From IMG/VR virus record IMGVR_UViG_3300037882_001761, positions 1 to 30,809 of that record: a stretch of DNA of 30,809 nucleotides. One strand, 5' to 3'. The position numbers and the translations under genes were made by a program. This stretch comes from a virus. The notes beneath the pieces are model-generated. The model was not told where the DNA came from. It ran no database searches and saw only the letters and a list, made by a program, of their open reading frames with translations. Positions 6,884-26,710 of the stretch are shown one piece after another (within the stretch, counting starts at the first letter, position 1; every line of letters starts with the position of its first letter).

Positions 6884-6903
6884 CCTTGAACGGAGTTTGT
6901 GAC

Positions 6904-7460: not shown

Positions 7461-7551
7461 CCAGGATTATTTTTGTGCCGATCCTTCCGTTGTTTCTAGA
7501 CCTTCCGTGAACCGTTTGCGTGTTTTGCGGAGTGTAGCAATCTTGTATGGC

Positions 7552-8901: not shown

Positions 8902-8924
8902 TTTCGATTTTATTTCCGTTTGTC

Positions 8925-8948
8925 AGAGGTAAGTCATACCCTCTTTTT
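8925..8948 (+). terminator. weak intrinsic terminator after protease gene
   Basis: AGAGG (8925-8929) can pair with CCTCT (8940-8944), extendable by GT/AC with a bulge, and is followed by five T. The stem is short, so at most a partial terminator or a processing site. Confidence 0.35.
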
Positions 8949-8962
8949 GAAGGATACTGAAA

Positions 8963-9808: not shown

Positions 9809-9827
9809 TCCGATTGAAAAACAAGAC

Positions 9828-9853
9828 GCGGGCGGTAAGTGCCGCCCGCTTTT
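9828..9853 (+). terminator. intrinsic terminator between decoration and capsid genes
   Basis: A perfect 8-bp GC stem GCGGGCGG (9828-9835) / CCGCCCGC (9842-9849) with a 6-base loop is followed by TTTT (9850-9853). It probably reduces read-through or stabilises the upstream message; the capsid gene 35 bases downstream then needs read-through or its own promoter. Confidence 0.75.
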
Positions 9854-9888
9854 CGACAGTTTGAAAATCACGCAAGAGGAAAAATCTC

Positions 9889-11061: not shown

Positions 11062-11097
11062 TTCACAAGTTTGACGCTCACATAAACGAGGTTTGAA

Positions 11098-11553
11098 ATG
11101 CTCCCATTCCTACGAAAAGGCTCGCTGATTTTGGAGCGACCTACGGCGGCACTTCCTCAGACGACCACTGGCAGCTTGTTCCGCATTACTGGCGGCAAAG
11201 TTCGCATCAAGTCGATTGTGGGTGAAGTCACGACCGTGATTCAAACGCAAGCGAACGACACTAAGCTCTTGTTCAATCCGGCTGGGACTGGATCAAACAT
11301 TGATATGTGCGCCGTGCTCGACATCACAGCCGATGCGGTGGGCACGCTCTACTCGATTACTGGGACTCTGGCCACTGCGATGAAATCAACATCGGTTTGG
11401 CTTGTGGCTCCCGCAGACGACATTGCCGCACCGGGCATGGTGCTCGCTCCCGGCGACATTGTTTTGAGTTGTGCGGCTTCAAACACCGGCAACGTGAAAT
11501 GGACGATCAACTACGAGCCGGTCGATGAAGGCTCGAATATCGCGATTCTGTAA
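11098..11553 (+). CDS. small beta-rich structural protein after capsid gene
   Basis: GAGG lies 8 bases before ATG 11098. The 151-residue protein is rich in Thr/Ala/Ile/Val, with beta-type sequence such as GSLFRITGGKVRIKSIVGEV and a late YEPVDEGSNIAIL end. No catalytic or membrane motif is seen. Its place between the major capsid gene and a terminator suggests a head or head-tail structural protein produced with the capsid. The family is not recognised. Confidence 0.65.
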   Translation: MLPFLRKGSLILERPTAALPQTTTGSLFRITGGKVRIKSIVGEVTTVIQTQANDTKLLFNPAGTGSNIDMCAVLDITADAVGTLYSITGTLATAMKSTSVWLVAPADDIAAPGMVLAPGDIVLSCAASNTGNVKWTINYEPVDEGSNIAIL

Positions 11554-11575
11554 GGTTCGCTCGTTACGCTCCGAG

Positions 11576-11608
11576 GCCGGTCGGCGTTACAACCGGCTGG
11601 CCTTTTTT
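11576..11608 (+). terminator. intrinsic terminator closing the capsid cluster
   Basis: GCCGGT (11576-11581) pairs with ACCGGC (11592-11597) around a 10-base loop; TGGCC and TTTTTT (11603-11608) follow. A neighbouring GGCC (11575-11578) can also pair with GGCC (11599-11602). Reasonable Rho-independent terminator before the connector/tail genes. Confidence 0.65.
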
Positions 11609-11619
11609 ATTGGTGTCTG

Positions 11620-12135
11620 ATGATTAGCCTGACCCCCTATTGCACGCAAGGCGAAATGGAGCGGTTTTTCTCCGCTCAGGGGGTGACGGCGTTTTCAGAC
11701 CACGACGAAAGCGGTGCGAACGACACCGGCGTGGTGGACGACTGCATCGAGCGGGCGACCACTGAAATCACGGACCTCGCTCACAATTGGTACGACCAAA
11801 CCGGTTTACTACTCTCGCCCACGGTCAAACGCTGGGCGGTGGTTGTGGCGACGTTTTATCTGTGCGAGTTGCGCGGCAATCCCGTGCCGGAATCCATCGC
11901 TAACGATTATATGCGAATCATGGGACCGGGTGGATTCTTGGAGCGATTGGCGGAAGGCAAATACAAATTGGCGGGCGTGCCGATGCGAGCTGCTCTTGTG
12001 CCGACGTTCAGCAATCTCACCGTGGATCGACGCTATCAACGAAGCAACGTGCGAGTAACAAACAACAGCAGCACGGAAACGAGTACGCGACAGCAAGACA
12101 CGTCGCGCGACGTGCCTGGTTCTTACGGATTCTAA
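11620..12135 (+). CDS. head-tail connector, Mu gp36-like (DUF1320 type)
   Basis: The 171-residue protein begins MISLTPYCTQGEMERFFSA, the typical opening of Mu gp36/DUF1320-like proteins ('Y.t..dle..f'). It continues with a helical domain: DDCIERATTEITDLAHNWYD, then VKRWAVVVATFYLCELRGNP with the family's 'A...a.y.Lc.rrg...p' pattern. The C-terminus is Ser/Thr/Arg-rich and probably disordered. It likely forms the ring under the portal that links head to tail. The start at ATG 11620 follows the terminator, and the stop overlaps the next start (TAATG). Confidence 0.7.
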   Translation: MISLTPYCTQGEMERFFSAQGVTAFSDHDESGANDTGVVDDCIERATTEITDLAHNWYDQTGLLLSPTVKRWAVVVATFYLCELRGNPVPESIANDYMRIMGPGGFLERLAEGKYKLAGVPMRAALVPTFSNLTVDRRYQRSNVRVTNNSSTETSTRQQDTSRDVPGSYGF

Positions 12136-12983
12136 TGAGCAGTTCAACCATTTACTTCCGAGGTACGAAGAGCGAAGCCAAGGCGGCTGTCCGCGCGGCG
12201 GTGGCGCAGGCTTCCGGACGCGAACCGGACACGCTCAACATCAAGCACGGCATGGCACTGGCGGTGGGTGCGGCGGTGTTGGCCGACGTGAAAGACGACT
12301 TCGTTCGCAAGGCGGATGGCGGCACTGGCGAAGATGGCAACAAGTGGCCGCCGTTGGCACCGGCGACGATTGCCAACCGGCGTAAAGGTCCGGGTGATGC
12401 GGAATTATTGAAAGCAGCCGGGTTGAAAAAGAGCCATCGGTTCAAGCGGATGTTGAACAAAAACACACTGACGAAAGAGCAGCAAAAAGAGTGGGAGCGT
12501 GTTTACCGTTTCAACGTGCTGCGATTTGCTTTATCGACCACGCTGCCGACTGCGAACCAACGGGCACGGGCACTGGCTTGGGAACACGTCCGCAAGCTGG
12601 GGGCCGATCCGAAGATGAATCCCACGCGGGTGAATGTATTTGGCGGGAGACAAGTCAAGATTCTGCGTGACACGGGCCGTTTAATGAACTCACTTTCGCC
12701 GGGTGTGTTGTCGGGAGTTGGTCCGGACTCGTCCTATACGAAGCCTACGGCTGAAGGCGGCGAAGAACAGATTTTAGAGATTCTCGAAAGCGGAATGATG
12801 GTTGGGACGAACGTGAAATACGCGGCGACTCACCAATACGGTGACGCGGAAAGAAACATCCCGGCAAGGCCGTTCTTGCCGGACAATGGCACGGTGCCAG
12901 ATATTTGGCTGGCACGATGGGCGAAGAAAGCGAATGAAGCGTTGGCCGCTGGAATTCGATATGCGTTGCGGGTGCAAAGATGA
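12135..12983 (+). CDS. tail completion / virion morphogenesis protein (Mu gpG-like)
   Basis: This 282-residue protein has the hallmarks of the phage virion morphogenesis (gpG/gpS) family: DGNKWPPLAPATIANRRKG (the 'G..W.pla..T...r' box, about residues 66-85), ILRDTGRLMNSLS (about 174-187), and GTNVKYAATHQYG ... NIPARPFLPD near residues 220-252. About 90 residues of extra helical sequence between the boxes make it longer than the family's usual ~150-180 residues. It is required to finish the tail end before joining to the head. The context, after a gp36-like gene, fits. Confidence 0.8.
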   Translation: MSSSTIYFRGTKSEAKAAVRAAVAQASGREPDTLNIKHGMALAVGAAVLADVKDDFVRKADGGTGEDGNKWPPLAPATIANRRKGPGDAELLKAAGLKKSHRFKRMLNKNTLTKEQQKEWERVYRFNVLRFALSTTLPTANQRARALAWEHVRKLGADPKMNPTRVNVFGGRQVKILRDTGRLMNSLSPGVLSGVGPDSSYTKPTAEGGEEQILEILESGMMVGTNVKYAATHQYGDAERNIPARPFLPDNGTVPDIWLARWAKKANEALAAGIRYALRVQR

Positions 12984-13519
12984 TCGGCGCGGAGCGGGCG
13001 TTATTGCTCGCAGTTCGCGACACGTTGCGAGACTCGCCGTATTCGTTTGCCGAAACGGAATGCGAAATTGAATTTGACGAGATGACCCCTGCCACGGTTG
13101 GGCAACATTATCTGGCAGTGATGCCGGGTGGTTGGCGACCTGGGCCACGGCACGATAGCTGCGGGGGGGTGAATGATTTGGTTTACGGCGTGGACGTGCT
13201 GGTTATCAAACGCATCACGAACGTACCGAGAGACAGACGAAGAAACGTGTTCATCGACCAACTGGGATCGTTGGATGCGTTGATAGATAAGGTTTATCAA
13301 GCCGTTGATTTTAAGTATGGTTTGCTCGACACGGCCAACGGGACGATTGCGGTTGAAACCGGATCGCTGGAAGGTTTTGTTGAACCGCTCAAATTTAGTT
13401 ACGTTGACAAGCGACCAAGACTCGCACCTGCGGAACTGTTCTCAGGTGCCAAAGATAACGCGGCGGGAATGATGCGACTGGTTTCGTTCACGGGTGCGAG
13501 AAGGTTAACCCACAAATAA
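12980..13519 (+). CDS. unknown protein, tail-terminator candidate
   Basis: ATG 12980 overlaps the preceding stop (ATGA). The 179-residue protein has an N-terminal helix (GAERALLLAVRDTLRDSPY), a beta segment around 'HYLAVMPGGWRPGP', and a later 'DLVYGVDVLVIKRITNVPRD' strand followed by a helix that counts a dimer-like 'LDALIDKVYQAVD'. This helix-strand-strand-helix order recalls tail terminator (gpU-like) proteins, which sit at this position in siphophage operons. No sequence signature is decisive, so the role is inferred from position. Confidence 0.6.
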   Translation: MIGAERALLLAVRDTLRDSPYSFAETECEIEFDEMTPATVGQHYLAVMPGGWRPGPRHDSCGGVNDLVYGVDVLVIKRITNVPRDRRRNVFIDQLGSLDALIDKVYQAVDFKYGLLDTANGTIAVETGSLEGFVEPLKFSYVDKRPRLAPAELFSGAKDNAAGMMRLVSFTGARRLTHK

Positions 13520-13531
13520 GGATTTGATTTC

Positions 13532-13909
13532 ATGGCTTTCACTCATACGGTGAACGATACGCTGGTTGTCGAATCGTCATCGTTCACGGCTTCGCGAAAC
13601 TACACGGGCACGAATCGCGTTTCCATCGCCGAGACGGTGGCTGTCGGCACGAACACACTCATCAACGTGGCCATTGACGTTTCGGCGGTCAAGTCGTTTC
13701 GGATGCAATCCGACGTGGCAATGACTGTCAAAACCAACAGCAGTGGCTCGCCCGATGACACGATTACGCTGGTGGCTGGTATTCCCTACGTTTGGACTAC
13801 CGACAGCTACGACGCTTTCCTGCTCGGCACAGACGTAACGAAAGTTTACGTCACCAATGTGGCTGAGGCGGCGTTCAAGATCGAAGTGATTCAAGACTCG
13901 ACACCATAA
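13532..13909 (+). CDS. small beta-rich structural protein
   Basis: AAGGA precedes ATG 13532. The 125-residue protein is Thr/Val/Ser/Ala-rich throughout (for example VNDTLVVESSSFTASRNYTG) with alternating hydrophobics and an end of VAEAAFKIEVIQDSTP. No helices, cysteines or enzyme motifs stand out. It lies among tail genes and is probably a virion component; the family is not recognised. Confidence 0.6.
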   Translation: MAFTHTVNDTLVVESSSFTASRNYTGTNRVSIAETVAVGTNTLINVAIDVSAVKSFRMQSDVAMTVKTNSSGSPDDTITLVAGIPYVWTTDSYDAFLLGTDVTKVYVTNVAEAAFKIEVIQDSTP

Positions 13910-13914
13910 CAACT

Positions 13915-14313
13915 ATGGCTGGAATTCTCATACCACGGGATCGGACGACAAAGCAGCGGCCGCGCGGCTATTGCTACAATCCAGAGTGCTTGGAGAGTTC
14001 CGAACACGATCGGTTTGAGTTCAATTTGGAACACGATCGGTTAGCCTGTCCGAAGTGCGGAGCGAACGAATCGCCGATGGTGGGGTTGCTGGCATTGATT
14101 CACCTGATTGTGAAACATCCGCAGGGACGAATCAAAGGCGTGGGTGGGATTCGCTATGGCATCGCTTGCGATCCGGAACGGGCCTACATCGCGACGAACA
14201 CTAACAACGAATGCGGAACGGGCGACCCGGCAGCGGTGAATTGTTCGGGCTGTAAAGCTGAAATCGAGAAACAAAAAATGGCTGCCGTCATTGGCGAGCC
14301 GGTGAATATTTAA
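13915..14313 (+). CDS. zinc-ribbon protein in the tail gene cluster
   Basis: ATG 13915 follows the preceding stop by 5 bases. The 132-residue protein has several Cys pairs: YCYNPEC (CxxxxC), LACPKCG (CxxC), and later ACDPE, ECGTGDP, NCSGC. The first two form a zinc-ribbon-like pair near residues 20-45; the late CSGC may make a second site. The middle is 'LLALIHLIVKHPQGRIKGVG'. Zinc-ribbon proteins occur in phage virions and as host-factor binders, but I see no decisive clue for either. Confidence 0.65.
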   Translation: MAGILIPRDRTTKQRPRGYCYNPECLESSEHDRFEFNLEHDRLACPKCGANESPMVGLLALIHLIVKHPQGRIKGVGGIRYGIACDPERAYIATNTNNECGTGDPAAVNCSGCKAEIEKQKMAAVIGEPVNI

Positions 14314-14325
14314 AAGGATTACAAC

Positions 14326-14817
14326 ATGTTCATTGCTGGCCGGTACACGGCAACATACAACGCTCTTTCGCTGGGACAAACGGCGGAAGGGATCAAGCTC
14401 GCCTTTCGGTTTTTCAAACGCAAGATCATGGGCGATGCTGGTGGCGAGACTCGGCAAGATTCGGTTTATCGCGGGGCGGAAGTCACTGCCGACATGCGGT
14501 TGATCGAGTACAACGCGGCGGGTGCTCAAGCAGCTTTCTGGCCATACTCTGCGACGTTTCTTGACTTGGGCGAGATTGGCCGCTTAGACGTGGCCAGCAA
14601 CGTGGCCAAGCAGTTGATTATGACGGCGGTTGTTGGCACCACGGCAGCAGCCACACCGGCGAGCATTACGATGCCGCTGGTTTGTTTAGCGGAAGGCTTC
14701 CCGGTCGAATTGCTGTTTGCTCCCGACCTGCGCGAAGTGCCGTTGAAGTTCGACGTTTATCCCGGCGCGGTGGTTTCCGCTGGCAACAGTTTGGGCGTGT
14801 TTGGAACCCAAACCTAA
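14326..14817 (+). CDS. tail tube protein candidate
   Basis: AAGGA is 9 bases before ATG 14326. The 163-residue protein begins MFIAGRYTATYNALSLGQTA and shows the strand-turn pattern of phage tube proteins: an early 'G.y.at.n...lG.t..g', a central beta segment with MRLIEYN, and a late FDVYPG end. Length and position, before a tape-measure candidate, match a major tail tube subunit. There is no unambiguous family signature, so this is inference from size, composition and gene order. Confidence 0.55.
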   Translation: MFIAGRYTATYNALSLGQTAEGIKLAFRFFKRKIMGDAGGETRQDSVYRGAEVTADMRLIEYNAAGAQAAFWPYSATFLDLGEIGRLDVASNVAKQLIMTAVVGTTAAATPASITMPLVCLAEGFPVELLFAPDLREVPLKFDVYPGAVVSAGNSLGVFGTQT

Positions 14818-14833
14818 CTAGGTGGGGTTCGTT

Positions 14834-16186
14834 GTGAGTGACGCCAAAATCGAAATCGTGTTCGTCGATAGCGGGGATTCTATACCTCCCCCGCCCGACA
14901 CGTCGCCACGTCCCAAGTCTAAGCCGAGTGACACGACCGCCTATTCTGCCAGCGACACCGACGCCAATGGTATCGACCCGCCTGCCCCGGCTGGACCTCG
15001 CAAGACTCGCACCGACGCGCCGGTCAAGGAAGATGCCGACAAAGGCATGGAAGAATTCTTCGGCGTGCTGAAAGAATCAGGGGCGAAGATTGCCGACGTG
15101 TTCGGCGTCGGATTGATCTACCGCAAGATTGCCGAATTGATCGGCGGGATCACGGACGTGGTTTCGTTGTTCAAAAAGCTAAAGCCAGGCGAAACGACAA
15201 TCGAGACTCTCCGTTCGGAATCAGAAAAATCCGCCACGCATCCGGTGGCAGGAACGGCGGCGGGTGCTACCTCATCTTTTTTTAAGCAAGCGGCGGCGAC
15301 AGCGGCGGGAACGGCGGCGGCACATCAATTTTCTCCCGGAGGTGGCCCAACTAAAACAGGTGCAACGCCGGGGCCAACATTAAGCGGACTGTCAAATACG
15401 CTGATCGCAACAAAAAAAGTTGGGGGGTACATAGCTCAATACGGCAACTCATCAAACACAGGCGGTACGGCATTAACCACCGCTGGACAAACAGTGAACG
15501 CGATGCCGGTGGCAGCCCCCGCCGCTGGACCTGTTGCTGGTGCCCTGGCCTCCCTTGGCCCGTTCGCCATCGCAGTTGCCGGGGCCACTGCGGCCATTGT
15601 GGCCGGTGCCGTGATAATGAAGCTCGCCTTCGATGCCATTCATCGGCAGGTTTCCGAGATTGAAGGCTATTCGCCGGACGTGGGGTTCGCGGCTGCGAAA
15701 AGCGAAGTGCGTAGCGAGTTGGCCACGATGCGGAGGGCGGAACGAATTGGCCCAGACGTGGCTGGTTTTGAAAACACCCGTGGCCGAATGGAAACCAAGC
15801 TCTACGACCTGCAAACGGAAATGCTTAAAGCCCTGCTAAATATGTACCAAGTGATTGAACCGCTGGTGGAAGTGCTGGGGGTGGGCGTGGACTTGGCGGC
15901 AAAATCATTGGCCGTCCACAACGCCATTAGCGGTGAAGTTTACAAGATTGCGGCCACCGATTTACTGGGGCCGCTGAAACCGTTGATCGACGCCTATCAG
16001 TTACTGCCGTCCATCGTGAAGGATTCGGCCACCGACATCATCAATACCATCACGGACAATGACACCGAAGTCAACGATCCGTGGATGGAACAATGGATGG
16101 CGATTGCTGGGGGCGGAATGCCGCGCGTGCCCGGCGCTGGTTTCGCGCCGGGACAACTCCCTAAAAAACTGGGGGCCGGTAAATGA
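14834..16186 (+). CDS. tape-measure-like protein
   Basis: GTG 14834 is preferred over GTG 14822 because AGGTGGGG (14820-14827) sits 6 bases upstream. The 450 residues start with a Pro/Ser/Asp-rich disordered segment (about 1-75), followed by amphipathic helices (EEFFGVLKESGAKIADVF), an Ala/Thr/Gly-rich low-complexity stretch, a hydrophobic segment (about 226-262, ASLGPFAIAVAGATAAIVAG) and a long helical region (KSEVRSELATMRRAERIG...). Hydrophobic patches within helical repeats are typical of tape-measure proteins, although this one is short. It is placed after the tube candidate. It could instead be an ejected internal protein. Confidence 0.55.
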   Translation: MSDAKIEIVFVDSGDSIPPPPDTSPRPKSKPSDTTAYSASDTDANGIDPPAPAGPRKTRTDAPVKEDADKGMEEFFGVLKESGAKIADVFGVGLIYRKIAELIGGITDVVSLFKKLKPGETTIETLRSESEKSATHPVAGTAAGATSSFFKQAAATAAGTAAAHQFSPGGGPTKTGATPGPTLSGLSNTLIATKKVGGYIAQYGNSSNTGGTALTTAGQTVNAMPVAAPAAGPVAGALASLGPFAIAVAGATAAIVAGAVIMKLAFDAIHRQVSEIEGYSPDVGFAAAKSEVRSELATMRRAERIGPDVAGFENTRGRMETKLYDLQTEMLKALLNMYQVIEPLVEVLGVGVDLAAKSLAVHNAISGEVYKIAATDLLGPLKPLIDAYQLLPSIVKDSATDIINTITDNDTEVNDPWMEQWMAIAGGGMPRVPGAGFAPGQLPKKLGAGK

Positions 16187-17949
16187 TTGGATTACTAGCC
16201 GCAGGAACGCTCAAATACAACGGCTTCACGTTCGATGGCACCTCGCAAGTGAAGGTCAACATTGAGTATGTCGAAGACGAAGCCGAGCGCACAGTCATCC
16301 TTCAAAAACACACGCTCACCGTCCGGGCGATCGTGGCCACGGTTGCCAACTCAACTGCCGACTCTCAACTAGCAAACATTCGCTTGCGACTGTCACAGCA
16401 AGGACAAGAGTTGATTTTCATCAATCGCGGATTCGGCGTTGATTTGATCGTTAATCCGGTCGCTCCCGGCGGATGGGACACCTATCGGAACGATGTTCGT
16501 TGGGGGCCGAAACCAAAGATACTTCACTGGGAAGCGGTTGGCAGCAACAACGCGGTAGAAATCGAATGGCAGGTGGAAACGTGTATTTCACTCTGCGACG
16601 GCTCGACCCCCCCCTTGCTTGCTTTGAATTATCTGGCGAGCTACTCGATAGACGCCAGGGGACTGACCACACGTACAATCAGCGGATATTACGAAGTGGC
16701 TCAAACTCGCAGCGGGCGAACGATCCCGATTTCTTCCGATGCTTATCGCTCGATTATTGCTGTCAATTTGCCGATTCTCGCACCGATCCCGTCTAGCAAC
16801 TGGACGTGGGAAGGGGTTGGATTCCAGCGGTCAACGAACTGGACAACATCACTAAACAAAAGCCGCGAAGATTTTGTGATCGTTGACAAGCAGATTCCAT
16901 CTAATCATGCCTTCCCCGACTATGCGGTTAATGCTCGCGGGCGACATCGGGCACAGTTCAAGCGTCCCCGCAAGAACAGCGGCGGACTGTGGAATCGCCA
17001 TACAATTTCGATGGAGTTGGAATTAGCGGAAGGGATCAATCCAGCCGTTTCCGTCTTGATCTTCTCCAACATCGTCAACACCCGATTGTTGGCCGCGAAC
17101 AAAGACAAAAACGGCGCGGCGTTGCAGCGGACGATGTTTGAGGAATTTACCATCGAGGAAGATGTTTTTGGTCGCGTTTCCGCATTTCATATTGAATACC
17201 GCGTGTTGGGTGGGCCGGATGCGTTGCGGACGTTCGTTGACACGTCGGGCATGTGGAAGCCTCTGGGCACGCTCTGGTCATCGTGGGCCACGTCGATGGC
17301 ATCTACGTTTGCACCTTATGGAAGCACCGGAATAAAGACACTGGCGGCAAACGACAGCATTACGGACCTCTGCGGACTGGGCACGACTTCGCCGCTGGCG
17401 AATGAAGCCGTCAACACGGTAGCCCAACCGACGTTCCCAAACGTTGCTCAACTGGATGCGATCTACCCAAGAAACATTGCCCCCCGCTCGGATGTTAGCT
17501 TCAAGGACTATCAAAACGCGATCTACCCGTACTCTAATTCTCCTACCGTTCGTCAGTCTATTCTGCAAGCTCCCACGGCGGACGTGACAGCAAACGCTAC
17601 GGGCGGAGCCCCGTCTGCCATTACTCAATTTGCAATGGCGGCGGTCAACACGACAGCGGATATTTTGCAAATGGGCGGAGCACGCCGCATGGGTGCGTTG
17701 ATCGTGGGTTATGCGGAGCGATATGCTTATCCTGTGCAGCGTCCGTCGTTTTCTAAGATTGGAACGATGGATGGAGCGAAAGAAGTTGATGCTACGTTTT
17801 CAAACCGCATCGTCGGCAACGCTTTAGGTATTCCGCTCTATCGTGGCGAATGGGCGATTCGATATGATTTACCAAACTCACCGACGACAACCATGCCCCC
17901 TAAGAATTACGAACAAGGCGTAGAATCCAATGGCACCATTACCCCCTAA
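16183..17949 (+). CDS. large tail protein (distal tail/baseplate candidate)
   Basis: ATG 16183 overlaps the preceding stop (ATGA). The 588-residue protein is beta-rich, with an N-terminal domain opening LKYNGFTFDGTSQVKVNIEY that resembles distal-tail proteins which carry a strand-rich circular-ring domain. Two cysteines near residue 130 (ETCISLCDG) may pair. The middle has VNIVNTRLLAAN-like structure and the C-terminal ~150 residues are Ser/Thr/Ala-rich with ANATGG and repeating Asn. No lysozyme or peptidase motif is seen. The gene ends within the start of the chaperone gene (overlap 17930-17949). A tail-tip role is inferred from size and order. Confidence 0.6.
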   Translation: MIGLLAAGTLKYNGFTFDGTSQVKVNIEYVEDEAERTVILQKHTLTVRAIVATVANSTADSQLANIRLRLSQQGQELIFINRGFGVDLIVNPVAPGGWDTYRNDVRWGPKPKILHWEAVGSNNAVEIEWQVETCISLCDGSTPPLLALNYLASYSIDARGLTTRTISGYYEVAQTRSGRTIPISSDAYRSIIAVNLPILAPIPSSNWTWEGVGFQRSTNWTTSLNKSREDFVIVDKQIPSNHAFPDYAVNARGRHRAQFKRPRKNSGGLWNRHTISMELELAEGINPAVSVLIFSNIVNTRLLAANKDKNGAALQRTMFEEFTIEEDVFGRVSAFHIEYRVLGGPDALRTFVDTSGMWKPLGTLWSSWATSMASTFAPYGSTGIKTLAANDSITDLCGLGTTSPLANEAVNTVAQPTFPNVAQLDAIYPRNIAPRSDVSFKDYQNAIYPYSNSPTVRQSILQAPTADVTANATGGAPSAITQFAMAAVNTTADILQMGGARRMGALIVGYAERYAYPVQRPSFSKIGTMDGAKEVDATFSNRIVGNALGIPLYRGEWAIRYDLPNSPTTTMPPKNYEQGVESNGTITP

Positions 17950-18256
17950 CCAACAAACGTTTATTGACGGACAATTGCAATTCAAGGTCCAGAAACAAGA
18001 TGGATCGGTTGTTGACCAGTCTATCGACGTGATGATTTTGAAAACGCTTTGCGATGAATTGCAGGATCGACACTTCCCCGAAACGGCTGCGGGCGAAGCC
18101 TATCGACCGACGCCGAAGTTCTTGAACGACTTGGCAGCGGAATTGGCTGGCTACGGCGTGGCTGATTGTTCGCCGTCCGTGGCTTATCAGTTGTGGTTTG
18201 CCGGGGCGCAAGGTTTGGAGTTCTTAAAAAAAAACACCAGCGAGCAGCCGAGTTAG
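17930..18256 (+). CDS. tail assembly chaperone, short form (G-like)
   Basis: The 108-residue product opens MAPLPPNQQTFIDGQLQFK and has mixed alpha/beta composition with a helical middle (MILKTLCDELQDR, LNDLAAELAGYG). It ends LEFLKKNTSEQPS just after an A9 run. Reading this gene with the overlapping -1 frame from 18232 yields a longer, well-formed protein. Small gene, A-run at the end and extended frame match lambda G/GT-type chaperones that wrap tape-measure proteins. Its place after the tape-measure and distal-tail genes is unusual, since it normally precedes them. Confidence 0.6.
   Translation: MAPLPPNQQTFIDGQLQFKVQKQDGSVVDQSIDVMILKTLCDELQDRHFPETAAGEAYRPTPKFLNDLAAELAGYGVADCSPSVAYQLWFAGAQGLEFLKKNTSEQPS
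18226..18235 (+). promoter_or_regulatory. -1 slippery run for chaperone frameshift
   Basis: A9 followed by C. In the zero frame the codons are TTA AAA AAA AAC, so A AAA AAA or A AAA AAC allows a -1 slip into the frame that stays open to 18489. A weak hairpin TCACG/CGTGA (18267-18284) lies more than 30 bases downstream. Confidence 0.55.
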
Positions 18257-18489
18257 CATTTTGGTTTCACGTCCCGCCGCGTGAGCTGGACCGCGAAACC
18301 GAATACGGATTGATGGCCAATTTGGGGCGAGTGAAATCGCAAGACAGAATCCATCGGGGCGACTATAACCCCTCCGATTACAAAGGCGTTTATTCGCTGT
18401 ACATGAGTGCCACGGGCGACGAACGCCTAGCCAGAAAAATGCAATCGCTCGCAATGGAGTCGCTCGTCAATGAGAAAACTGCAAAGTAG
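18232..18489 (+). CDS. -1 frame extension of tail assembly chaperone (GT-like)
   Basis: Entered by a -1 shift at the A9 run, this frame adds 85 residues to the first 101 of the short form (about 186 in total). The added sequence is protein-like: AAELAFWFHVPPRELDRETE, then YGLMANLGRVKSQDRIHRGD, SDYKGVYSLYMSATGDERLA and an ending NEKTAK. Upstream of the run the same frame is only antiphase shadow with no usable start, and the first ATG inside (18313) would cut a conserved-looking block, so frameshifting is the simplest explanation. The gene ends 20 bases into the portal gene. The helical, charged tail fits the T domain that recruits tube subunits. Confidence 0.6.
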   Translation, partial: KHQRAAELAFWFHVPPRELDRETEYGLMANLGRVKSQDRIHRGDYNPSDYKGVYSLYMSATGDERLARKMQSLAMESLVNEKTAK

Positions 18490-20698
18490 AACAGCCCCCC
18501 CAGCCAAGAAACAGAACGCGGCCACGAAGCTCGTTGGCGCGCCCAAGACGGCGGGCTATCAATCTGACCTGTACAGCCAGAGTTTCTACACGCCGCGTGA
18601 CTTGCCACCATTCACGTTCTTGACGATTCAGGCGATGTTGATGGAGCCGACGATTCGACTTGGCTTGTCGATTCGCTCGGCAGTTTTGCAGGGTGCCGAG
18701 TTCGCGTTCAAGAAGCCGGGCAGCGACGAATGGCAATCGGGCGTTCAGGCTCAAAATCCCGTCGTCGCCGCGTTCGTGCTGCGACAACTGAACAAGATTT
18801 GGCAGCATCACTTGGACGCTTTGCTCACCGCTCAAATCTGGGGCTGGGCGGCGGCGGAAGTCACGTACAAACTGACGCCTTACGGGCTAGTCGAGATTGA
18901 TCGCCTCATGCCGTCGCACGCTCGCGACGTGCTGGCGCTGACGAGCCAAGGCAACGACATTGCGGGCGTTCGCTTTCTGCGAATCAAAGACAGCGGTAAC
19001 GTGAACGGTTCGGTTGACCTCGCCAAGCCGCGTTGTATCTGGCACGCCTTCAATCCGGAATCGCGGCGACCTTACGGCGATTCGATCCTGCGCGGGCCGT
19101 ATTCACCGTGGGCCGACAAGTGGCTGAACGGCGGTGCGTTGGACGTGCGGCGGCTGTTTATGAAAAAGAATGCCTACGGGGGGGACGACATTACTTACCC
19201 GATGGAATCCTACACGATGCCGAATGGCAGCGTAGTTGAGGGCCGGGACTTGGCTCGGCAGATTGTCGAGCAGTTGCAAGCGGGTGGGGTGACAACGCGA
19301 CCAGCGAGCTACGATGACAAGGGCAACGAGCTCTGGAAGCTGACGCGGGCTACCGTGCCAGCAAATCCCCAGCACATTTTGCAATACCCGAAAGACCTGG
19401 ACGTTGAGATGCTGCGCGGGATGGAAATCCCCGACGACATTCTGACGGCGGAAGCCTCGGGCGCGTGGGCTGGCAAGCAAGTCCCGATGATGGCCTTCTA
19501 CCAGGGATTGGAACGCTGGCTACGGGCGTTGCTGGGCGATTGCGTGGAAATTATTCAAGAGTTGGTTGACCTGAATTTCGGCAAGAATACGTGGTTTGAA
19601 GTCACAACGAAGCCGCTGGTCAAGCAAGCTCAAGAACAAAACAAAGAGAGCGAACAACAACCGGGCGGGGATCAGCAGCCATTGGGGGGTGGAAATCAAC
19701 CAGGCGGGCCATCGCCGCAACAGGGGCAACAGCCACAACCACAACAGCAGCAGCGGATGAGCCTGGACGTGACAGAAGCGATTGGACGGGGCGTGCTGGA
19801 CGCGGCGGAACTGGTCAAGGCGGCGCGGGAGGTGATGGCGATTCGGCTATCGACCGATGCGAGCGGGCACGAGCACAAAGGGAAGGGCGAGGGGGGCGGG
19901 CAGTTTGTGGCCCAAGGTAAAGGCGGCAACGGCAGTCAACCGGCTAAAAAAAACGCGCAACCAATGGCTAAGCCAACTGCCCCCAAGGGCTATCGCAAGC
20001 CCCCCCCTTCAAAGAAACTAAGTGAGAAGGCCCAACGAGCCAAAGACAATCACAAGCTCGTTGATAAGGCCATTCAGCGCTATGCGGAAGAACACAACGA
20101 GCCACGCTTTGCCACGGCGATCGGTGGGGTATCGTTCCCGAATTCGGAGCCGGTAGACGTGGCAATTCCATCCACGGACGCGATGCGAAAATCGTGGTTT
20201 GCGGAAGCTGGACGATACCGCCAAGAAAAGCTGGCGGGCGGGAAGCCAACGCCGATGAAGGTGGCGGGGCCAGCCCGGCACGGTGTTGAACTAAAAACGA
20301 TGGTGGACAACTCGAATCAAAAGCTGACGATGGATGCTTACGCTCAGGTTCGCAAGATCGAATGGGAACGCGAACACAAAGGCTCGACCTATCACACGGT
20401 TGTGAGCGATGATTCAGCGGTGTTTGACACCAGCGGAGCGGGGAAACACGATCACTCCAAGCGGGTCTATTACTATCGGCGGGGAGTCGCTGGCTCGGCT
20501 CGCGTGGATGGTATGCACCGTTGCACGGAAGCCGAGTTGAAAAAGCTCATGGCGATGCCGAACGAAAAACTTCCGCCGAACGCACAACGCAAGGAACAAC
20601 CGTGGTTGACGGTCGGCCGCTGGAAGCCCTTCACCGACGATCACGGCAAAGGTTATCGAAACAGTAAGTCAGGTCAAATCGTGAGGCCAAAGAAGTGA
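18470..20698 (+). CDS. portal protein (Mu gp29/DUF935 type) fused to a PD-(D/E)XK nuclease-like domain
   Basis: At 742 residues this exceeds the ~500 of ordinary gp29 portals. Residues 1 to about 390 are portal: LTIQAMLMEPTIRLGLSIRS, NPESRRPYGDSILRG and the family's GMEIPDDILTAEASGAWAGK block. Then a Gln/Pro/Gly-rich linker (about 390-430), a helix (about 435-460), and a GHEHKGKGEGGGQFV loop. A second domain follows (about 530-700): helix with RYAEEHNEPRF, EPVDVAI (D563), RHGVELKT (E607-x-K609) and YHTVVSDD. That is the order of acidic, Asp and ExK residues of PD-(D/E)XK nucleases. The end is GYRNSKSGQIVRPKK. The portal function is solid and the nuclease assignment is by motif. An A8 run (19946-19953) lies in the linker. 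The next gene encodes a very acidic small protein with GTGA overlap. Confidence 0.82.
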   Translation: MRKLQSRTAPPAKKQNAATKLVGAPKTAGYQSDLYSQSFYTPRDLPPFTFLTIQAMLMEPTIRLGLSIRSAVLQGAEFAFKKPGSDEWQSGVQAQNPVVAAFVLRQLNKIWQHHLDALLTAQIWGWAAAEVTYKLTPYGLVEIDRLMPSHARDVLALTSQGNDIAGVRFLRIKDSGNVNGSVDLAKPRCIWHAFNPESRRPYGDSILRGPYSPWADKWLNGGALDVRRLFMKKNAYGGDDITYPMESYTMPNGSVVEGRDLARQIVEQLQAGGVTTRPASYDDKGNELWKLTRATVPANPQHILQYPKDLDVEMLRGMEIPDDILTAEASGAWAGKQVPMMAFYQGLERWLRALLGDCVEIIQELVDLNFGKNTWFEVTTKPLVKQAQEQNKESEQQPGGDQQPLGGGNQPGGPSPQQGQQPQPQQQQRMSLDVTEAIGRGVLDAAELVKAAREVMAIRLSTDASGHEHKGKGEGGGQFVAQGKGGNGSQPAKKNAQPMAKPTAPKGYRKPPPSKKLSEKAQRAKDNHKLVDKAIQRYAEEHNEPRFATAIGGVSFPNSEPVDVAIPSTDAMRKSWFAEAGRYRQEKLAGGKPTPMKVAGPARHGVELKTMVDNSNQKLTMDAYAQVRKIEWEREHKGSTYHTVVSDDSAVFDTSGAGKHDHSKRVYYYRRGVAGSARVDGMHRCTEAELKKLMAMPNEKLPPNAQRKEQPWLTVGRWKPFTDDHGKGYRNSKSGQIVRPKK

Positions 20699-20997
20699 GC
20701 ATTTACGCATCATTCGACGAACACGGCGGCGAACAAATCGCCAGCAATCAAGGTTGGTCCGACTTCGGCAACTGGGTGGAAACGCTCGACGCCAACGAAT
20801 TCGATCAACTCATCGTACTATGGGAACACGGCTGGACGCCGGAAGTCGAAACACTAGCCAAGGAGTTGGGTGAGGCGTTGCAGAAATACCCCCCTGACGA
20901 AAAAATTACTGCGACCGGGCAAGCGTTGCTATCCGCTCTGCAAGGCAGCACAAATGCGGAAGCGGTTTACGTCAATAACGGCATGACAAAGGTCTAA
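20695..20997 (+). CDS. small acidic protein, immunity candidate for the portal-fused nuclease
   Basis: GTG 20695 overlaps the stop of the portal-nuclease gene (GTGA), so it is translated with it. The 100-residue product has 16 Asp/Glu against 4 Lys/Arg (net about -12) and is mostly helical after an N-terminal YASFDEHGGEQIASNQGWSD. Central helices are EFDQLIVLWEHGW and EVETLAKELGEALQKY. Small size, strong acidity and position directly behind a nuclease domain are the usual marks of nuclease immunity proteins. I know no named family match, so the role is inference. It might instead be a structural accessory to the portal. Confidence 0.6.
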   Translation: MSIYASFDEHGGEQIASNQGWSDFGNWVETLDANEFDQLIVLWEHGWTPEVETLAKELGEALQKYPPDEKITATGQALLSALQGSTNAEAVYVNNGMTKV

Positions 20998-21000
20998 ACA

Positions 21001-22305
21001 ATGGCAACCAGAAACTACATTTCCAACGGCAGGCCAGTCAACCGCGTGGTCACAATCACGGTCGCCGGAACGTGGGTGGCCGCTGAAACGATCACGCTGA
21101 CAATTGCGAGCGTGGAATTCGTCATCACGATCGGCTCGTTGGTCACGACCACGCAAGTGGCGACCACGATCAAAGAAGCGGTGAACGGAACGACGTTGAC
21201 CGACACGACCGCGACATGCTTGCCGACGATTGCCCAGGGCGGCGCGCAGGTGATTCCGATGTTCTCGGAGCTGACTGCCACGTCGTCGGGCGCGGTGGTG
21301 ACCATCACGTCGTCAAAGGAATTCACGCTTGCTTCAACCGAAACATCTACCAGCGGCACCGTGACCGATGCGAGCGTCTCATCCGCAGATGGACTGTACC
21401 ATTTTGGGAACCAGGACAATTGGAGCGGCAACACCGTCCCGGTTGACACGGATACGATTGTATTCGACGCCGGAAGCCGGGGGCCGCTGTACGGGCTGCT
21501 GCCAGCGATCCAGCCCGCCGCTGTCGAGATCCCGAACTCGTTTCTCGGCAAGATCGGTTTGGCAGAAATCAACATCGACAATCCAGCGAAAACTTATTCC
21601 GAGACGCGCACGAAGTACCTGACGTTTGACGACAATTCCGCCACGACGACCTACACCATCGGGCACGGCGTGGGCACGGGCAGTGGTCGCTTGCGACTGA
21701 GCGCCGGAGCCGGTCAAGCCGTGTGGAACGTGCGAGGATCGGGAACGCGAGAACTGACCTCGACACCATGCGTATTGTTGATTGGCACCCATGCGAGCAA
21801 CGAGCTGAACAACTTCGACGGTGACGTTGGCGTGGCCTTCTACGGTGGCGAAACATCCACGCTGGCGACATTGCGAAACGGCAGCGGGGCAAGGTCAGTC
21901 GCCAAGACGTGGTGTGGTTCGGGAGTGACGTTGTCGAGCTGCACGGTCACGATGAACGGCGGGACACTCACGACCAATTCGGCCATCTCGGCCGCGAACG
22001 TCTACGAAGGCACTTGGACGCACCGCGCGGGGAACGTCGCCACAGTCAACGTCGATGGCGGGACAGTGAACTGGGAAGCAGGATCGGCGACGATTACCAC
22101 GCTGCGGATCGGCAGTGCCACGTTCGATAAGTCGCGCGACCCACGGCCACTGACCGTGACGAACGCGGTTCTGCTTTACGCGGGGGCCACGCTGAACGAT
22201 CCCAACGGCACGATTACATTCAGCGGCGGCATCACGCTGGTGCGTTGCACGCTGGACGATGTGACGCTCAACCTTGGTCCAAATCGCACCTACACGATTT
22301 CATAA
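21001..22305 (+). CDS. beta-rich tail-fibre-like or surface protein
   Basis: ATG 21001 follows the previous stop by 3 bases. The 434 residues are dominated by Thr/Val/Ser/Gly/Ala, with an N-terminal segment (RPVNRVVTITVAGTWVAAET) of about 120 residues resembling the repeat modules of the 424-residue protein at 3137. After this come 'GLYHFGNQDNWSGNTVPVDT' and a long beta region with regularly spaced Gly-Gly-Thr-Leu/Thr-Val-Asn turns (for example VTMNGGTLTTNSAI), suggestive of a beta-helix. It contains no cysteine-rich part and no enzyme motif. A tail-fibre or capsid-fibre role is plausible; the receptor is unknown. TAATG overlap with the MuF gene. Confidence 0.62.
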   Translation: MATRNYISNGRPVNRVVTITVAGTWVAAETITLTIASVEFVITIGSLVTTTQVATTIKEAVNGTTLTDTTATCLPTIAQGGAQVIPMFSELTATSSGAVVTITSSKEFTLASTETSTSGTVTDASVSSADGLYHFGNQDNWSGNTVPVDTDTIVFDAGSRGPLYGLLPAIQPAAVEIPNSFLGKIGLAEINIDNPAKTYSETRTKYLTFDDNSATTTYTIGHGVGTGSGRLRLSAGAGQAVWNVRGSGTRELTSTPCVLLIGTHASNELNNFDGDVGVAFYGGETSTLATLRNGSGARSVAKTWCGSGVTLSSCTVTMNGGTLTTNSAISAANVYEGTWTHRAGNVATVNVDGGTVNWEAGSATITTLRIGSATFDKSRDPRPLTVTNAVLLYAGATLNDPNGTITFSGGITLVRCTLDDVTLNLGPNRTYTIS

Positions 22306-23345
22306 TGGCCGACTCCCCACAACTACCATCCGGCAACGATCCCCACCCGACCGATTCGATCATCGGCCACGGGTTGCTATTCACCGAAACGCTACTACAA
22401 GAGTTGCGCGAACGCTTGGCCAACCGCTTAGCTCGAATGCGGGGACGCACGGAAACGGAAATTCTGCAAGCCGCTCGCGAAGTGCTGGCAGAGTTTGAAC
22501 CGCTGGTTGCCCAAGCGTTACTCGAAACGGACCTGGCCGCGTTTGTGGCCGGTGTCAACGTTGTGGCGGGCGGCTTGCCGCTCTACACGCAAAACAAATT
22601 CCAGAAAGACTTGCCATTCGGCGGGGACTGGCAACCGCCGTCGCTCTACGATAAGTCGATCGGCGATTCGGGCGAGCCGCTCATCCGTTTTCCGATCATC
22701 GACCGGGCCAAAGACAACTTGCTCGAGCGCAAGATTCTCGATTGGAACACGTACCATGAAGTCTCTGCCGACGTTCGCAACCGTTCCTTCACCGTTGCGG
22801 GGGATATGACCGAACAGACGATGGAAAAGATTCGGACGGTGCTGGCGGAAAACGTCGAAAGTGGGGCCAGCTTCCAAGAGTTCAAGGCGGCGATGGCGGA
22901 AGGATTGGACAAGAGTTTTCTGGGACCCTCCCACGCTGAGGTGGTGTGGAGAACGAACATAATGTCTGCCTACGCCGATGGCCATGAAACAATGGCGAGC
23001 CATCCGATTGTGGAAGAGTTGTTTCCGTATCAAGAGATTCTGCCGATCTTGGATTCGCGTTGCAGGCCAGAGCACGCAGCGTTAGCAAAAATGGGACTCT
23101 CCGGAACGGGGGTATACAATCGTTCGGACCCCTTTTGGGACTTCTTCACCCCGCCTTGGGGTTATTCGTGTCGCTGCGGAGTTTTGCTCTGCGACGTAGA
23201 ACGCGCCGCCCGCAAAGGCGTCGTCGAAGCCCAGACGTGGCTCCGCACTGGCCAACCACCCGCCAACCCCGAACATCGCCTCCAATTCATTCCGTTTCGT
23301 CCGAAGGATAATTTTGGCGGAGCACGCCGGAAAGCTCGCGTCTAA
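22305..23345 (+). CDS. MuF-type head morphogenesis protein (SPP1 gp7/Mu gp30 family)
   Basis: ATG 22305 overlaps the preceding stop (TAATG); the upstream extension to 22245 is antiphase. The 346-residue protein carries the MuF core at residues about 200-295: EVVWRTNIMSAYADGHETMA, ILPILDSRCRPEHAAL (D250, C253, H257) and TPPWGYSCRCGV (C289, C291). These are the conserved Cys/His positions of the family. The first ~190 residues are helical (ETLLQELRERLANRL). No extra C-terminal toxin domain is fused, unlike many MuF proteins. It attaches to the portal, enters the prohead and may be ejected with DNA. Confidence 0.88.
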   Translation: MADSPQLPSGNDPHPTDSIIGHGLLFTETLLQELRERLANRLARMRGRTETEILQAAREVLAEFEPLVAQALLETDLAAFVAGVNVVAGGLPLYTQNKFQKDLPFGGDWQPPSLYDKSIGDSGEPLIRFPIIDRAKDNLLERKILDWNTYHEVSADVRNRSFTVAGDMTEQTMEKIRTVLAENVESGASFQEFKAAMAEGLDKSFLGPSHAEVVWRTNIMSAYADGHETMASHPIVEELFPYQEILPILDSRCRPEHAALAKMGLSGTGVYNRSDPFWDFFTPPWGYSCRCGVLLCDVERAARKGVVEAQTWLRTGQPPANPEHRLQFIPFRPKDNFGGARRKARV

Positions 23346-25759
23346 TGGCCTGGAACTTTCCAAGAGTTAGCGGCGCTGGTGTTCTCGATCCGAGGCCGCT
23401 GATTGAAGCCGCCCAGCGGTTGAACTCGCAAACTGATTTTATCGGGTTGGCCAATTCAATTACGTGCCCGGTTGGCATCCATCCCGGTTCGGCTTATTTC
23501 TTGGTGCCGCGCACTGTAGTCGATGGGGGTGGGACCAACGGCAGCGTGAACCGCAATAACGTAGTGAACATTACATGGACGCACCAGCAATCCGATGACT
23601 TCGATCCGAACAACGCCAGCGTGACGACCTGGAAAAATTACGTCGTAATTGAAGCCCATTGCGTGGGTTTGGATGGTGACAGCCAAGCGGCTTACATGCT
23701 GGAGCTGCGAGACAAGCGGCATCTCATGTTCGCTGGCACGGCCAACAAACTTTACAACGTCTCGGATGGCGTTAATGACGACGGCGAAAAAACGTATCTG
23801 AAAGAGACACTAAAACCGGGTGGCTTTCCGCTTTATCCTTGGACGTGGCAAGAGATTCTCGAAAACCTCTGGAGTGAGTTACCGTTCAACGCGGGAGCGT
23901 GCCCGACGCTGCCGTGGTCGCCGTCGATGACGCCGGACACGATTCGATTCGTAGGGGTGTCAGCTTGGGAAGCGATTGGCGACTTGCTGGCGGTTTTGCA
24001 ATCAGTGATCGTGCTGAATCCTCTGACCGACGTGTTCACGATCGCTCGACTCGGCCAAGTTCAGGGCGACCCATTTTTCGGCATTGATCCGCTGTTTGAC
24101 GCTATTGCCGATCGCTTGATGATCGACGACAAGCCTAAAGATGATTGCAAGCGAGCGAACGTTCCGGACGCGATCAATTTCACATTCCCGCGCCGCACCA
24201 AAGACTGCGAACAGCAAGAGGATGCGGCCTATGTTGATTCACGCAACGTCGGCAACGGTAACTCCGCTATTTCGACGGAGCTAACTTTTTGGCTACCGCT
24301 GATTAGCGAATGGGATGAAAAAGACGCGACGGAACCGCTCAACGAATCGTGGCTCGATTTAGCCGCTGGCGAGTTCATCGTCAAGCTAAAAGAACGCATC
24401 GAAGCCGGAATTGTCGCGATCGGCAAAACCTATTCCGGCCTCATCGACACCATCCCCAACGGGAGCGAAGTCCATTGGATCCGCTGGCGCGACGTGGGCG
24501 ACCAATTGGGGTTGGTGACGGAGTTTCGTTCTTTGGAAATTCCGCTTAGGGGAATGGAAGTCGATCCGCTCAGAAAACGCGAAGGGCTGATTTGGCTTCT
24601 CCCCTTCGAGCTAATGCAAGACCGCACCGCAGGTGCCTACGAAGAACGCTTGCCCGTGATCTTGATCGGCTCATACGGTGCTGGCTGCGACCTGCCGGAG
24701 TCAAATCCCGACGCGGAAGCGTTGATCGATGACTGGTCAACGCTGAAAGCCACCTACCCCAATTTGAACGCTCAACTGGCTTGGTATCACGACACGCAAT
24801 ACCCACACGCTATGGGGCCGATGGAAGCGGGGGATGGCGGTGACGACGAAGCAAGAGGGGCTATCGGATTGCTGGCTTTCCATCCCGATATTTCGCTGGC
24901 CGACGATGACGAACAAGCAGAGTCAGAATTTAGCTTTTGCAAAAAACGGTTCGAGGTGATTACTTCCGACCAACGCGCCATGTTCTTCGAGACGCAAGCT
25001 AAGTTTCCTTTTCCTTACGCCGACGATATTGGCACTACTGGCAGCAATCTTGACGGCGATCTTCCCGGCGACAACGGCACGTTTGGAGACGATTATTACA
25101 TTCTCGGACTTCCAGTACCTTTGAGTGGCTGGCCATTTTCGCAGCGTGAACACACTTCGTATTGGCATGCGACCGACAGCGAATCCGAGCCAGGTAGTTT
25201 GTCAGTCGTAAAAAATCCGCTGAGATACTGCGGCGCGACCGGCGACACGGGAATTATCACCTACAGACCAGCCACCGAGACGTGGGAGCTTGTTTCGACC
25301 CAAGTTCGCAACATCACTGCAATCGGTGCTTTGCGGTTCTCGGACTGTGCCATCGAGTCTAGTAAAAAACGTTTTCGTGCATATTCCCGTGTTGACGGCG
25401 GCGAATTCGCCGCGAACTGGGAAACGGAAATCCAGCTTTATTCCAGAACTAAATTCAACGATCTAAGCTACGCTATTCGAGCCTCCAACGGCGTTGACAC
25501 ACCAGTGGGCGACGAAACCGACGTGTGCGTATTGGTGGCAGATTACGAAATCGACTGCAACGCCTTCACGGAATCGCCAGCCGCGAGCGGACAATACAAC
25601 ACGGCGGCTGTACAATACTACGTCAAGGGGGTTAAGGAAGTCGTCAATGGATCGACTGACATCACGTTCACTTGCCATTACGTGTTCAGTCCGTGCTATG
25701 AGTTGGTTGATACCGACTGCGACGTAGTAATCGAAGGCGACGATACATGCCCAGCATAA
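23345..25759 (+). CDS. large phage protein, tail/baseplate candidate
   Basis: Start ATG 23345 overlaps the MuF stop (TAATG). The 804 residues include an N-terminal part (about 1-90) with beta segments, a region with DGDSQAAYMLELRDKRHLMF, a central helix/strand region (WLDLAAGEFIVKLKERIEAG, SEVHWIRWRDVGD), and a Thr/Asp-rich C-terminal ~150 residues with scattered Cys ending in CDVVIEGDDTCPA. No membrane, peptidase or glycosidase motif is recognised. Size and position after MuF suggest a tail-tip, baseplate or adhesion component. It is followed by a markedly Cys-rich gene, and the two may assemble together. Confidence 0.6.
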   Translation: MAWNFPRVSGAGVLDPRPLIEAAQRLNSQTDFIGLANSITCPVGIHPGSAYFLVPRTVVDGGGTNGSVNRNNVVNITWTHQQSDDFDPNNASVTTWKNYVVIEAHCVGLDGDSQAAYMLELRDKRHLMFAGTANKLYNVSDGVNDDGEKTYLKETLKPGGFPLYPWTWQEILENLWSELPFNAGACPTLPWSPSMTPDTIRFVGVSAWEAIGDLLAVLQSVIVLNPLTDVFTIARLGQVQGDPFFGIDPLFDAIADRLMIDDKPKDDCKRANVPDAINFTFPRRTKDCEQQEDAAYVDSRNVGNGNSAISTELTFWLPLISEWDEKDATEPLNESWLDLAAGEFIVKLKERIEAGIVAIGKTYSGLIDTIPNGSEVHWIRWRDVGDQLGLVTEFRSLEIPLRGMEVDPLRKREGLIWLLPFELMQDRTAGAYEERLPVILIGSYGAGCDLPESNPDAEALIDDWSTLKATYPNLNAQLAWYHDTQYPHAMGPMEAGDGGDDEARGAIGLLAFHPDISLADDDEQAESEFSFCKKRFEVITSDQRAMFFETQAKFPFPYADDIGTTGSNLDGDLPGDNGTFGDDYYILGLPVPLSGWPFSQREHTSYWHATDSESEPGSLSVVKNPLRYCGATGDTGIITYRPATETWELVSTQVRNITAIGALRFSDCAIESSKKRFRAYSRVDGGEFAANWETEIQLYSRTKFNDLSYAIRASNGVDTPVGDETDVCVLVADYEIDCNAFTESPAASGQYNTAAVQYYVKGVKEVVNGSTDITFTCHYVFSPCYELVDTDCDVVIEGDDTCPA

Positions 25760-25771
25760 AGAGCTAGAGAG

Positions 25772-26710
25772 ATGCGAATAGTAAAACGTGCTGGCAAGGT
25801 CTTGAAGAATGCGGGCAAGCTCGTCACCAACAACGAGTGTTGCTGCGATAATTGCCTGGAGGATTGCGTTGATTCCACCATCTCGGCTGATATTCCGACC
25901 CTCGGAACGTTCGTGCTTTCTAGTTACACTCCAGGCAGTCCCGTAGAAGGGTGCTGTTACTGGCGCAATCTGGCCCCCGATCCAGACGGAGACGGCGATT
26001 GCACAATCACAGCGATCCATGCTTCGCTGTGTATCGTCGACGAAACCGTGACCCTCACAATTACGGTGGACGACGAAACGCCCGCCACCTTGAAAAGCTG
26101 GTCGAAAGAATACGCTAAGTGCGATTTCTGCGCATTGATGCCGGGCTTCGCTGAACTAGACCCCGCAGCGGGGGACTGCTACGACGACGTGGCAACGCTG
26201 ACCTTTGCTAGTTCTTGTTGCCACCCGCCGGACTGTAATTGCGATTGCTACGTCGGCGATTGTTTGTTTTTTGATTGGCTCACCGAGCCGCCGGATTATG
26301 ACGAGGATGATTGCACGTTTAATTTATGCCGAGACAACTTCGTAGACTTCCCGGCACCGCCTTATCAGCTTGACTTCGTGACGGGCAACGAAACATCTTC
26401 GTATTACTCTTTCGAGTACTCCCCAGAAGGTGGAGGAACGTTTTCAATAGGTTTTACGTGTGACAAATCGCCTGATAACGGCGAGCTTTGCGATTGTGAT
26501 GTGGAACATTGGGACAATTGCGAATACACCCTACTAATTGAGTGCTCGAATGGATGCTCCCTGCTTGAAAAAAAGTGCGTAAAAACACTACCCACGGCGG
26601 GATTCCCGCTAACGTTTTCTAACGCTGGCGATTGTGCGGACCACAGCGGGCCTTGCGGAGAAATCTGCAATCCTTGGGAGGCGGAAATCAGCACAGGATC
26701 TTGCGCATGA
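25772..26710 (+). CDS. cysteine-rich secreted-type or virion surface protein
   Basis: The 312-residue protein has 31 Cys (about 10 percent), with clusters such as NECCCDNCLEDC near residue 22 and CCHPPDCNCDCYVGDC near 150, plus very acidic loops (PPDYDEDDCTF). The N-terminus MRIVKRAGKVLKNAGKLV is basic and amphipathic without a clear signal peptide. It is poor in Lys/Arg after that. Repeated Asp/Cys knots suggest disulfide- or metal-bound folding, perhaps as a surface spike. The stop overlaps the next ATG (ATGA). No family is recognised. The thioredoxin-like protein at the window's left could help its folding, which is speculation. Confidence 0.65.
   Translation: MRIVKRAGKVLKNAGKLVTNNECCCDNCLEDCVDSTISADIPTLGTFVLSSYTPGSPVEGCCYWRNLAPDPDGDGDCTITAIHASLCIVDETVTLTITVDDETPATLKSWSKEYAKCDFCALMPGFAELDPAAGDCYDDVATLTFASSCCHPPDCNCDCYVGDCLFFDWLTEPPDYDEDDCTFNLCRDNFVDFPAPPYQLDFVTGNETSSYYSFEYSPEGGGTFSIGFTCDKSPDNGELCDCDVEHWDNCEYTLLIECSNGCSLLEKKCVKTLPTAGFPLTFSNAGDCADHSGPCGEICNPWEAEISTGSCA

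Follow-up and report, generated by a model that had tools for sequence, protein, structure and literature searches.

A putative mobile cassette of a PD-(D/E)XK nuclease-like domain and a small acidic partner on phage portal and MuF proteins

The portal-nuclease fusion and its predicted fold

What a nuclease-like domain is doing at the end of a phage portal protein, and what the small acidic gene directly behind it is for, are the questions raised by a locus from an uncultivated phage. The DNA studied was IMG/VR virus record IMGVR_UViG_3300037882_001761, positions 1–30,809 (30,809 nucleotides, hereafter the window); related contigs are numbered with the prefix L. The portal-nuclease fusion gene is a single open frame of 742 amino acids (18470..20698, + strand). 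An earlier note had read it as a complete portal up to about residue 390, a low-complexity linker, and a PD-(D/E)XK nuclease-like domain. The extent of the Mu-type portal part (residues 1 to ~390; 18470..19639, +) was borne out, as Pfam Portal_Mu (PF06074) matched residues 56–217 (E 1e-6), and residues ~30–390 matched phage records by tblastn, one of which is annotated as a portal. The linker (residues ~391–514; 19640..20011, +) is rich in Q, G, P, and K and is followed in the same frame by the nuclease-like domain (residues ~515–710; 20012..20599, +), an arrangement typical of portal-fused effectors in the style of polyvalent proteins. The alignment delimits a C-terminal extension (residues 711–742; 20600..20695, +) that is shared with L002, L003, L010, L011, L039, and L041. 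The fusion protein matched the C-terminal domain profile at E 2e-73, a value to be read in light of the window sequence itself being a member of that profile.

The linker contains a GGQF motif (residues 476–479; 19895–19906). Related G(G)[QEKR]F motifs were seen in the linkers of nine other carriers (L003, L004, L007, L010, L014, L020, L029, L033, and L041), lying 30–75 residues ahead of the nuclease, frequently preceded by H/DPR or HEHK and followed by a stretch rich in GG. The motif also occurs behind the small protein in L003, L010, and L041, and it may serve in joining, targeting, or cleavage.

The residues singled out in the earlier note (E540, E541, H542, D563, E607, and K609) were all found at the positions given there. 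On the + strand, the codons of the principal ones lie at 20087–20089 (E540), 20156–20158 (D563), 20288–20290 (E607), and 20294–20296 (K609), with H642 at 20393–20395. Across 21 complete sequences, Q536, D563, E607, K609, T610, H642, and T643 did not vary, and D563, E607, and K609 were invariant in every relative in which the region is complete. The domain thus has the conserved D and (D/E)xK of the PD-(D/E)XK superfamily, together with an alpha/beta REase core fold that is predicted rather than solved. An AlphaFold2 model built from the alignment (pLDDT 89.7, pTM 0.83) reproduced the helix-strand order of the PD-(D/E)XK core. Foldseek alone gave weak matches against the PDB (best E 7e-3), and the PD-(D/E)XK picture came from a second look with VIA, in which the model matched Hjc (Z 9.2), SPARDA nuclease domains (8.8), RecU (7.4), DpnI (6.4), and PvuII (~5). 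We looked in the model for an unrelated fold or the lack of an REase-like core, either of which would speak against a nuclease assignment, and saw neither. The predicted structure therefore confirmed the reading of residues ~515–710 as a PD-(D/E)XK domain with an REase/resolvase core. In BFVD, one uncultured-phage protein was a clear relative of the domain (E 3e-11, 32% identity). A match to "Dda-like helicase" (phrog_325; E 0.0044, or 5e-4 for the domain alone) was weak and was not taken as helicase kinship.

The small acidic partner gene

The gene behind the fusion (20695..20997, +) encodes 100 amino acids and is a putative inhibitor or immunity protein. It starts with the GTG of a GTGA whose end is the stop codon of the 742-aa frame, and its product has a net charge of −12, both in agreement with the earlier description, and a pI of 4.1. 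Among the 27 window genes tabulated, one other (25772–26710) is as acidic per residue. The small protein was modeled by AlphaFold2 with a pLDDT of 94.1.

A small downstream gene linked to the toxin domain is a general feature of toxin–immunity systems, and here 24 of the 27 contigs gave a match to the partner profile next to the domain. Of the other three, two stop early, L021 inside the domain and L016 ~400 nt past it; L034 has a free-standing domain with no partner within ~6 kb downstream. Searches seeded with the partner returned eight loci, all with the domain next door. Most partners are free proteins of 96–112 aa coupled to the nuclease, and the 4-nt overlap of domain gene and partner was present at 12 of the 22 junctions measured. 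In L018, other sequence lies between the two, and the partner is 255 nt downstream of the carrier gene. The partners were acidic in 20 of 21 cases (pI 4.1–5.1), with L018 as the exception. Their mean pairwise identity was 30% vs. 49% for the nuclease, indicating faster divergence, and domain and partner distances were correlated (Mantel r 0.46, p 4.5e-4). The partner is a real, fast-diverging conserved family adjoining the domain.

The one notable structural match of the partner was E. coli YfbM (1ryl; 93 of 100 residues, Z 7.7, rmsd 3.4; next match Z 4.8). With 14% identity, no Pfam match, and a Z below 8, this similarity may reflect just a common arrangement and is silent on function. Matches to designed helical proteins, TetR C-termini, and ThsB were dismissed as matches of helix composition.

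In some contigs, the small protein forms the N-terminal part of a longer protein (L002:6555-7421, L003:6573-7826, L006:6478-8199, L010:6564-8003, L014:6480-9737, and L041:6001-9711). The region behind it resembles a C39-like peptidase in L002 (0.1 bit under the Pfam cut-off) and ART-PolyVal in L006, and the other regions had no match. In L009 (5900–6781), frameshifts break both domain and partner, which could represent a decayed copy or sequencing errors.

Occurrence and movement among head proteins

Relatives of the domain were found only in IMG/VR contigs, 27 including the window, of which L029 and L030 are near-identical. This is a small sample, and all are metagenomic fragments. No credible family for the domain or the partner was present in Pfam, NCBIfam, or PADLOC. 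Several of the domains and two of the small proteins had no match in 50,697 phage records or in a plasmid collection at the sensitivity of tblastn or pattern searches, and none in species genomes in two pattern-based scans, which can miss divergent copies. The family libraries and open-access literature searched held no description of the nuclease family, the partner, or the hopping between carriers.

The carrier is a portal in most relatives. Besides the Mu-type portal of the window, the domain is borne by lambda-type (L004, L008), HK97-type (L007, L011, L014, L015), and Portal_3-type (L039) portals, and by portals recognized by PHROGs only (L006, L016, L029, L033, L041). In at least three relatives (L008, L016, and L041), the nuclease has an ORF of its own immediately after the portal gene. 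MuF proteins carry the domain in L002, L003, L010, L017, L018, and L021. On the domain tree, the portal, MuF, and other labels require 8 changes, no fewer than the mean of 8.1 for shuffled labels. The clade containing the window (support 100/98) comprises two Mu-like portals, an HK97-type portal, a Portal_3 portal, and three MuF carriers, and a single origin of the MuF-borne domains was rejected (AU p 8e-11). A survey for switching of the domain, suggested in the earlier note, thus found it on different portals, and also on MuF, each with a matching downstream gene. Exchange of a domain between delivery proteins, as is general for polymorphic toxin–immunity systems, here spans four Pfam portal families plus MuF.

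The same note had placed the toxin-type domain on the portal and described MuF as free of one. This is right for the window, where the MuF minor head protein (22305..23345, +; PF04233, E 4.5e-8; phrog_220, E 3.5e-28) was confirmed and gave no further confident domain match, but in relatives MuF carries the same domain. The N-terminal MuF domain that defines MuF polymorphic toxins is correspondingly present in the six MuF relatives and lacking in the portal-borne protein of the window.

Some carriers have further features. In L020 (972–3185), the cassette is immediately followed by a MuF-type gene (phrog_2468, E 1.4e-28), and its carrier protein, which has no family match, might be a split-off MuF N-terminus. 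Two MuF carriers contain HExxH-type motifs, HEQGH in L017 (4126–6492) and HEIVH in L018 (4648–7848), which possibly mark a second, peptidase-like domain. The gene order of the window is unusual in that ~11.5 kb containing head, neck, and tail-like genes separate the large terminase gene (5390–6883; phrog_979, E 1.5e-105) from the portal (5390–18470). Close to the start of the window is a thioredoxin-like gene (1265–1711; phrog_22, E 5e-7). Behind MuF come two genes for highly acidic proteins without a Pfam match, 23345–25759 (net −61) and 25772–26710 (net −39).

One portal lineage provided a series of alleles with and without the cassette. Close relatives of the window portal were not found in the scan, and a scan with the L015 portal found only L015, so the presence/absence comparison was made in the lineage of L007. 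L007 and L043 are one contig, which carries the fusion and its partner. The portals of L044 and L045 are 91% and 87% identical to that of L007 and have the same flanks, and neither the domain profile nor the partner profile found a match in these two contigs. DNA matches to L043 end at 2246 and restart at 3232, so that linker, nuclease, and partner form one indel of ~985 nt. It sits between the portal and the next gene, a prohead protease-like gene judging by sequence, and takes the place of the portal's final residues and the beginning of this next gene. Because both are absent as one indel, domain and partner travel together, and the lineage exists without them. The earlier note's case would have been refuted by a C-terminal domain conserved in all relatives next to an unlinked gene; we saw instead near-identical portals with and without the whole unit. 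Polymorphic toxin–immunity systems may also bear different toxin domains on a single carrier lineage; in the L007 lineage, presence vs. absence of the cassette was what was seen.

Candidate functions and known systems

With carriers scattered over the domain tree and a joint indel in one portal lineage, the sequence comparisons indicate that domain and partner move as a two-gene cassette directed to the phage head. They suggest a toxin paired with its antidote, exchanged between phages and incorporated into their particles, and we consider it somewhat probable that the unit consists of a DNase effector associated with the virion and a cognate inhibitor. The invariant D, E, and K and the confidently predicted REase/resolvase-like model support this reading. 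The pairing of a basic domain (pI 9.8) with acidic partners, the faster divergence of the partners, and the co-varying distances would fit an inhibitor. Several observations count against an effector with an inhibitor: the free-standing domain of L034 has no partner, the partner is built into longer proteins in contigs such as L002 and L006, which is unusual for a plain immunity protein, Holliday junction resolvases are the best structural matches, and the L018 partner is not acidic.

For such an effector, we infer toxicity, inhibition, and release from the portal as follows. Fusion to the portal-vertex protein would address the PD-(D/E)XK domain, presumably a metal-dependent DNase, to the head; by analogy, the domain is probably located inside it, since the portal wing and crown and MuF lie inside the capsid. 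The small acidic protein, made by translational coupling, would bind and silence the nuclease in the producing cell and would also protect phage DNA in packaging. Packaged DNA passes the portal, so the nuclease would have to be kept silent by its partner while particles assemble. The portal is not injected, and delivery would therefore require cleavage of the linker or another route; cleavage within the low-complexity linker would be the likeliest way of release from the portal retained in the virion. The target could be the DNA of the infected cell, of a resident prophage, or of a co-infecting phage without the partner gene. That portals in general are polymorphic-toxin carriers, with a self-contained DNase and inhibitor cassette moving among unrelated portals and MuF proteins, and the nuclease being built into the head, released at the linker, and entering the next cell along with the genome to destroy the DNA of rivals lacking the inhibitor, is a tentative extension that we rather doubt.

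The earlier note had also allowed that the nuclease trims packaged DNA. A portal-tethered, packaging-linked resolvase or trimming nuclease that debranches or trims the DNA being packaged, with the acidic protein as its regulator, would have a genuine parallel in T4, where the Holliday junction resolvase endonuclease VII is associated with the portal protein gp20 (PMC10893049), and the closest folds of the domain are indeed those of Hjc (Z 9.2) and RecU (Z 7.4). The Hjc/RecU-type core is common to other PD-(D/E)XK nucleases, however, and similarity to Hjc shows no activity. The near-identical portal/protease neighborhood without the cassette means that this lineage packages without it, and MuF carries the domain just as portals do. 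The stem, wing, and crown of the T4 portal are inside the capsid (PMC9958956); wing and crown would, in these portals as well, face the capsid interior, past the point where branches block entry. Trimming or resolving of packaged DNA is thus weakened and, in our judgment, unlikely.

Quite improbable, too, is an injected early effector in the style of polyvalent proteins that degrades host or restriction/defense-related DNA, with the small protein as an adaptor or co-injected partner. Effectors on portal and MuF are known, and the small protein runs into longer proteins in six relatives (L002, L003, L006, L010, L014, and L041), yet most partners are free, nuclease-coupled proteins, and their rapid divergence and the pairing of acidic partner with basic domain are what one would expect of an inhibitor. 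A selfish nuclease of the homing type, which would cleave alleles lacking the cassette and spread through repair, could account for the clean presence/absence alleles in one lineage and the wide carrier range, but unrelated target genes, in-frame fusion after a linker, and an always-accompanying protein partner are unexpected for homing endonucleases, and we give this reading very little credence. A domain that has lost catalysis, or that binds DNA in a structural role only, could be basic, as this one is, but D, E, and K are invariant at 49% mean identity, which makes it just as implausible.

The effector with its inhibitor can be set against known systems. Head-borne toxins with immunity genes have been studied mainly on prophage MuF proteins. 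MuF toxins of temperate phages are followed by small ORFs (PMC5576092); Apk2 has a binding-type immunity protein, IapK, that is itself poorly conserved (PMC12226406), and Bxa has two immunity proteins (PMC11699363). As in these MuF polymorphic toxins, a head protein of the window ends in a toxin-like domain, the gene that follows is small, and the partner it encodes is poorly conserved; several relatives of the window domain sit on MuF itself. The window differs in that its domain and those of most relatives are portal-borne, the putative toxin is a PD-(D/E)XK nuclease, and the cassette was absent from the species genomes and isolate phages searched. Effectors fused to portal or MuF include PBECR RNase, 2H, Nudix, and ART domains and are presumed to be packaged and injected (PMC5512222, PMC9503650). 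Like the window protein, they join an enzyme domain to a head protein, whereas their domains are RNases, phosphoesterases, hydrolases, and transferases vs. a DNase-like domain here. The polyvalent-protein survey names ParB-like domains as the DNases of these proteins, with no other DNases alongside, and the passages on portal-fused effectors (PMC5512222, PMC9503650) do not describe a strictly linked small partner. RdnE is a PD-(D/E)XK interbacterial toxin neutralized by the product of a small neighbor gene, RdnI (PMC12483513). The pair is comparable to ours in its description, as a PD-(D/E)XK nuclease adjoining a small gene, and is not carried on a phage head. The Holliday junction resolvases Hjc and RecU have the closest solved folds to the predicted domain at 8–16% identity, with the window domain being fused to a head protein.

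Effector fusions to portal and MuF, and MuF toxins with immunity genes, were thus already known. Here, a nuclease-like domain and a strictly linked partner occur on portals from several families that are unrelated to each other, in phages that only metagenomes have revealed. In one natural series of alleles, the two are gained or lost together as a single unit. This provides a compact, testable system for asking whether phage particles deliver DNases and how a portal-bound enzyme spares the DNA passing it, and it also bears on how effector cassettes jump between head proteins.
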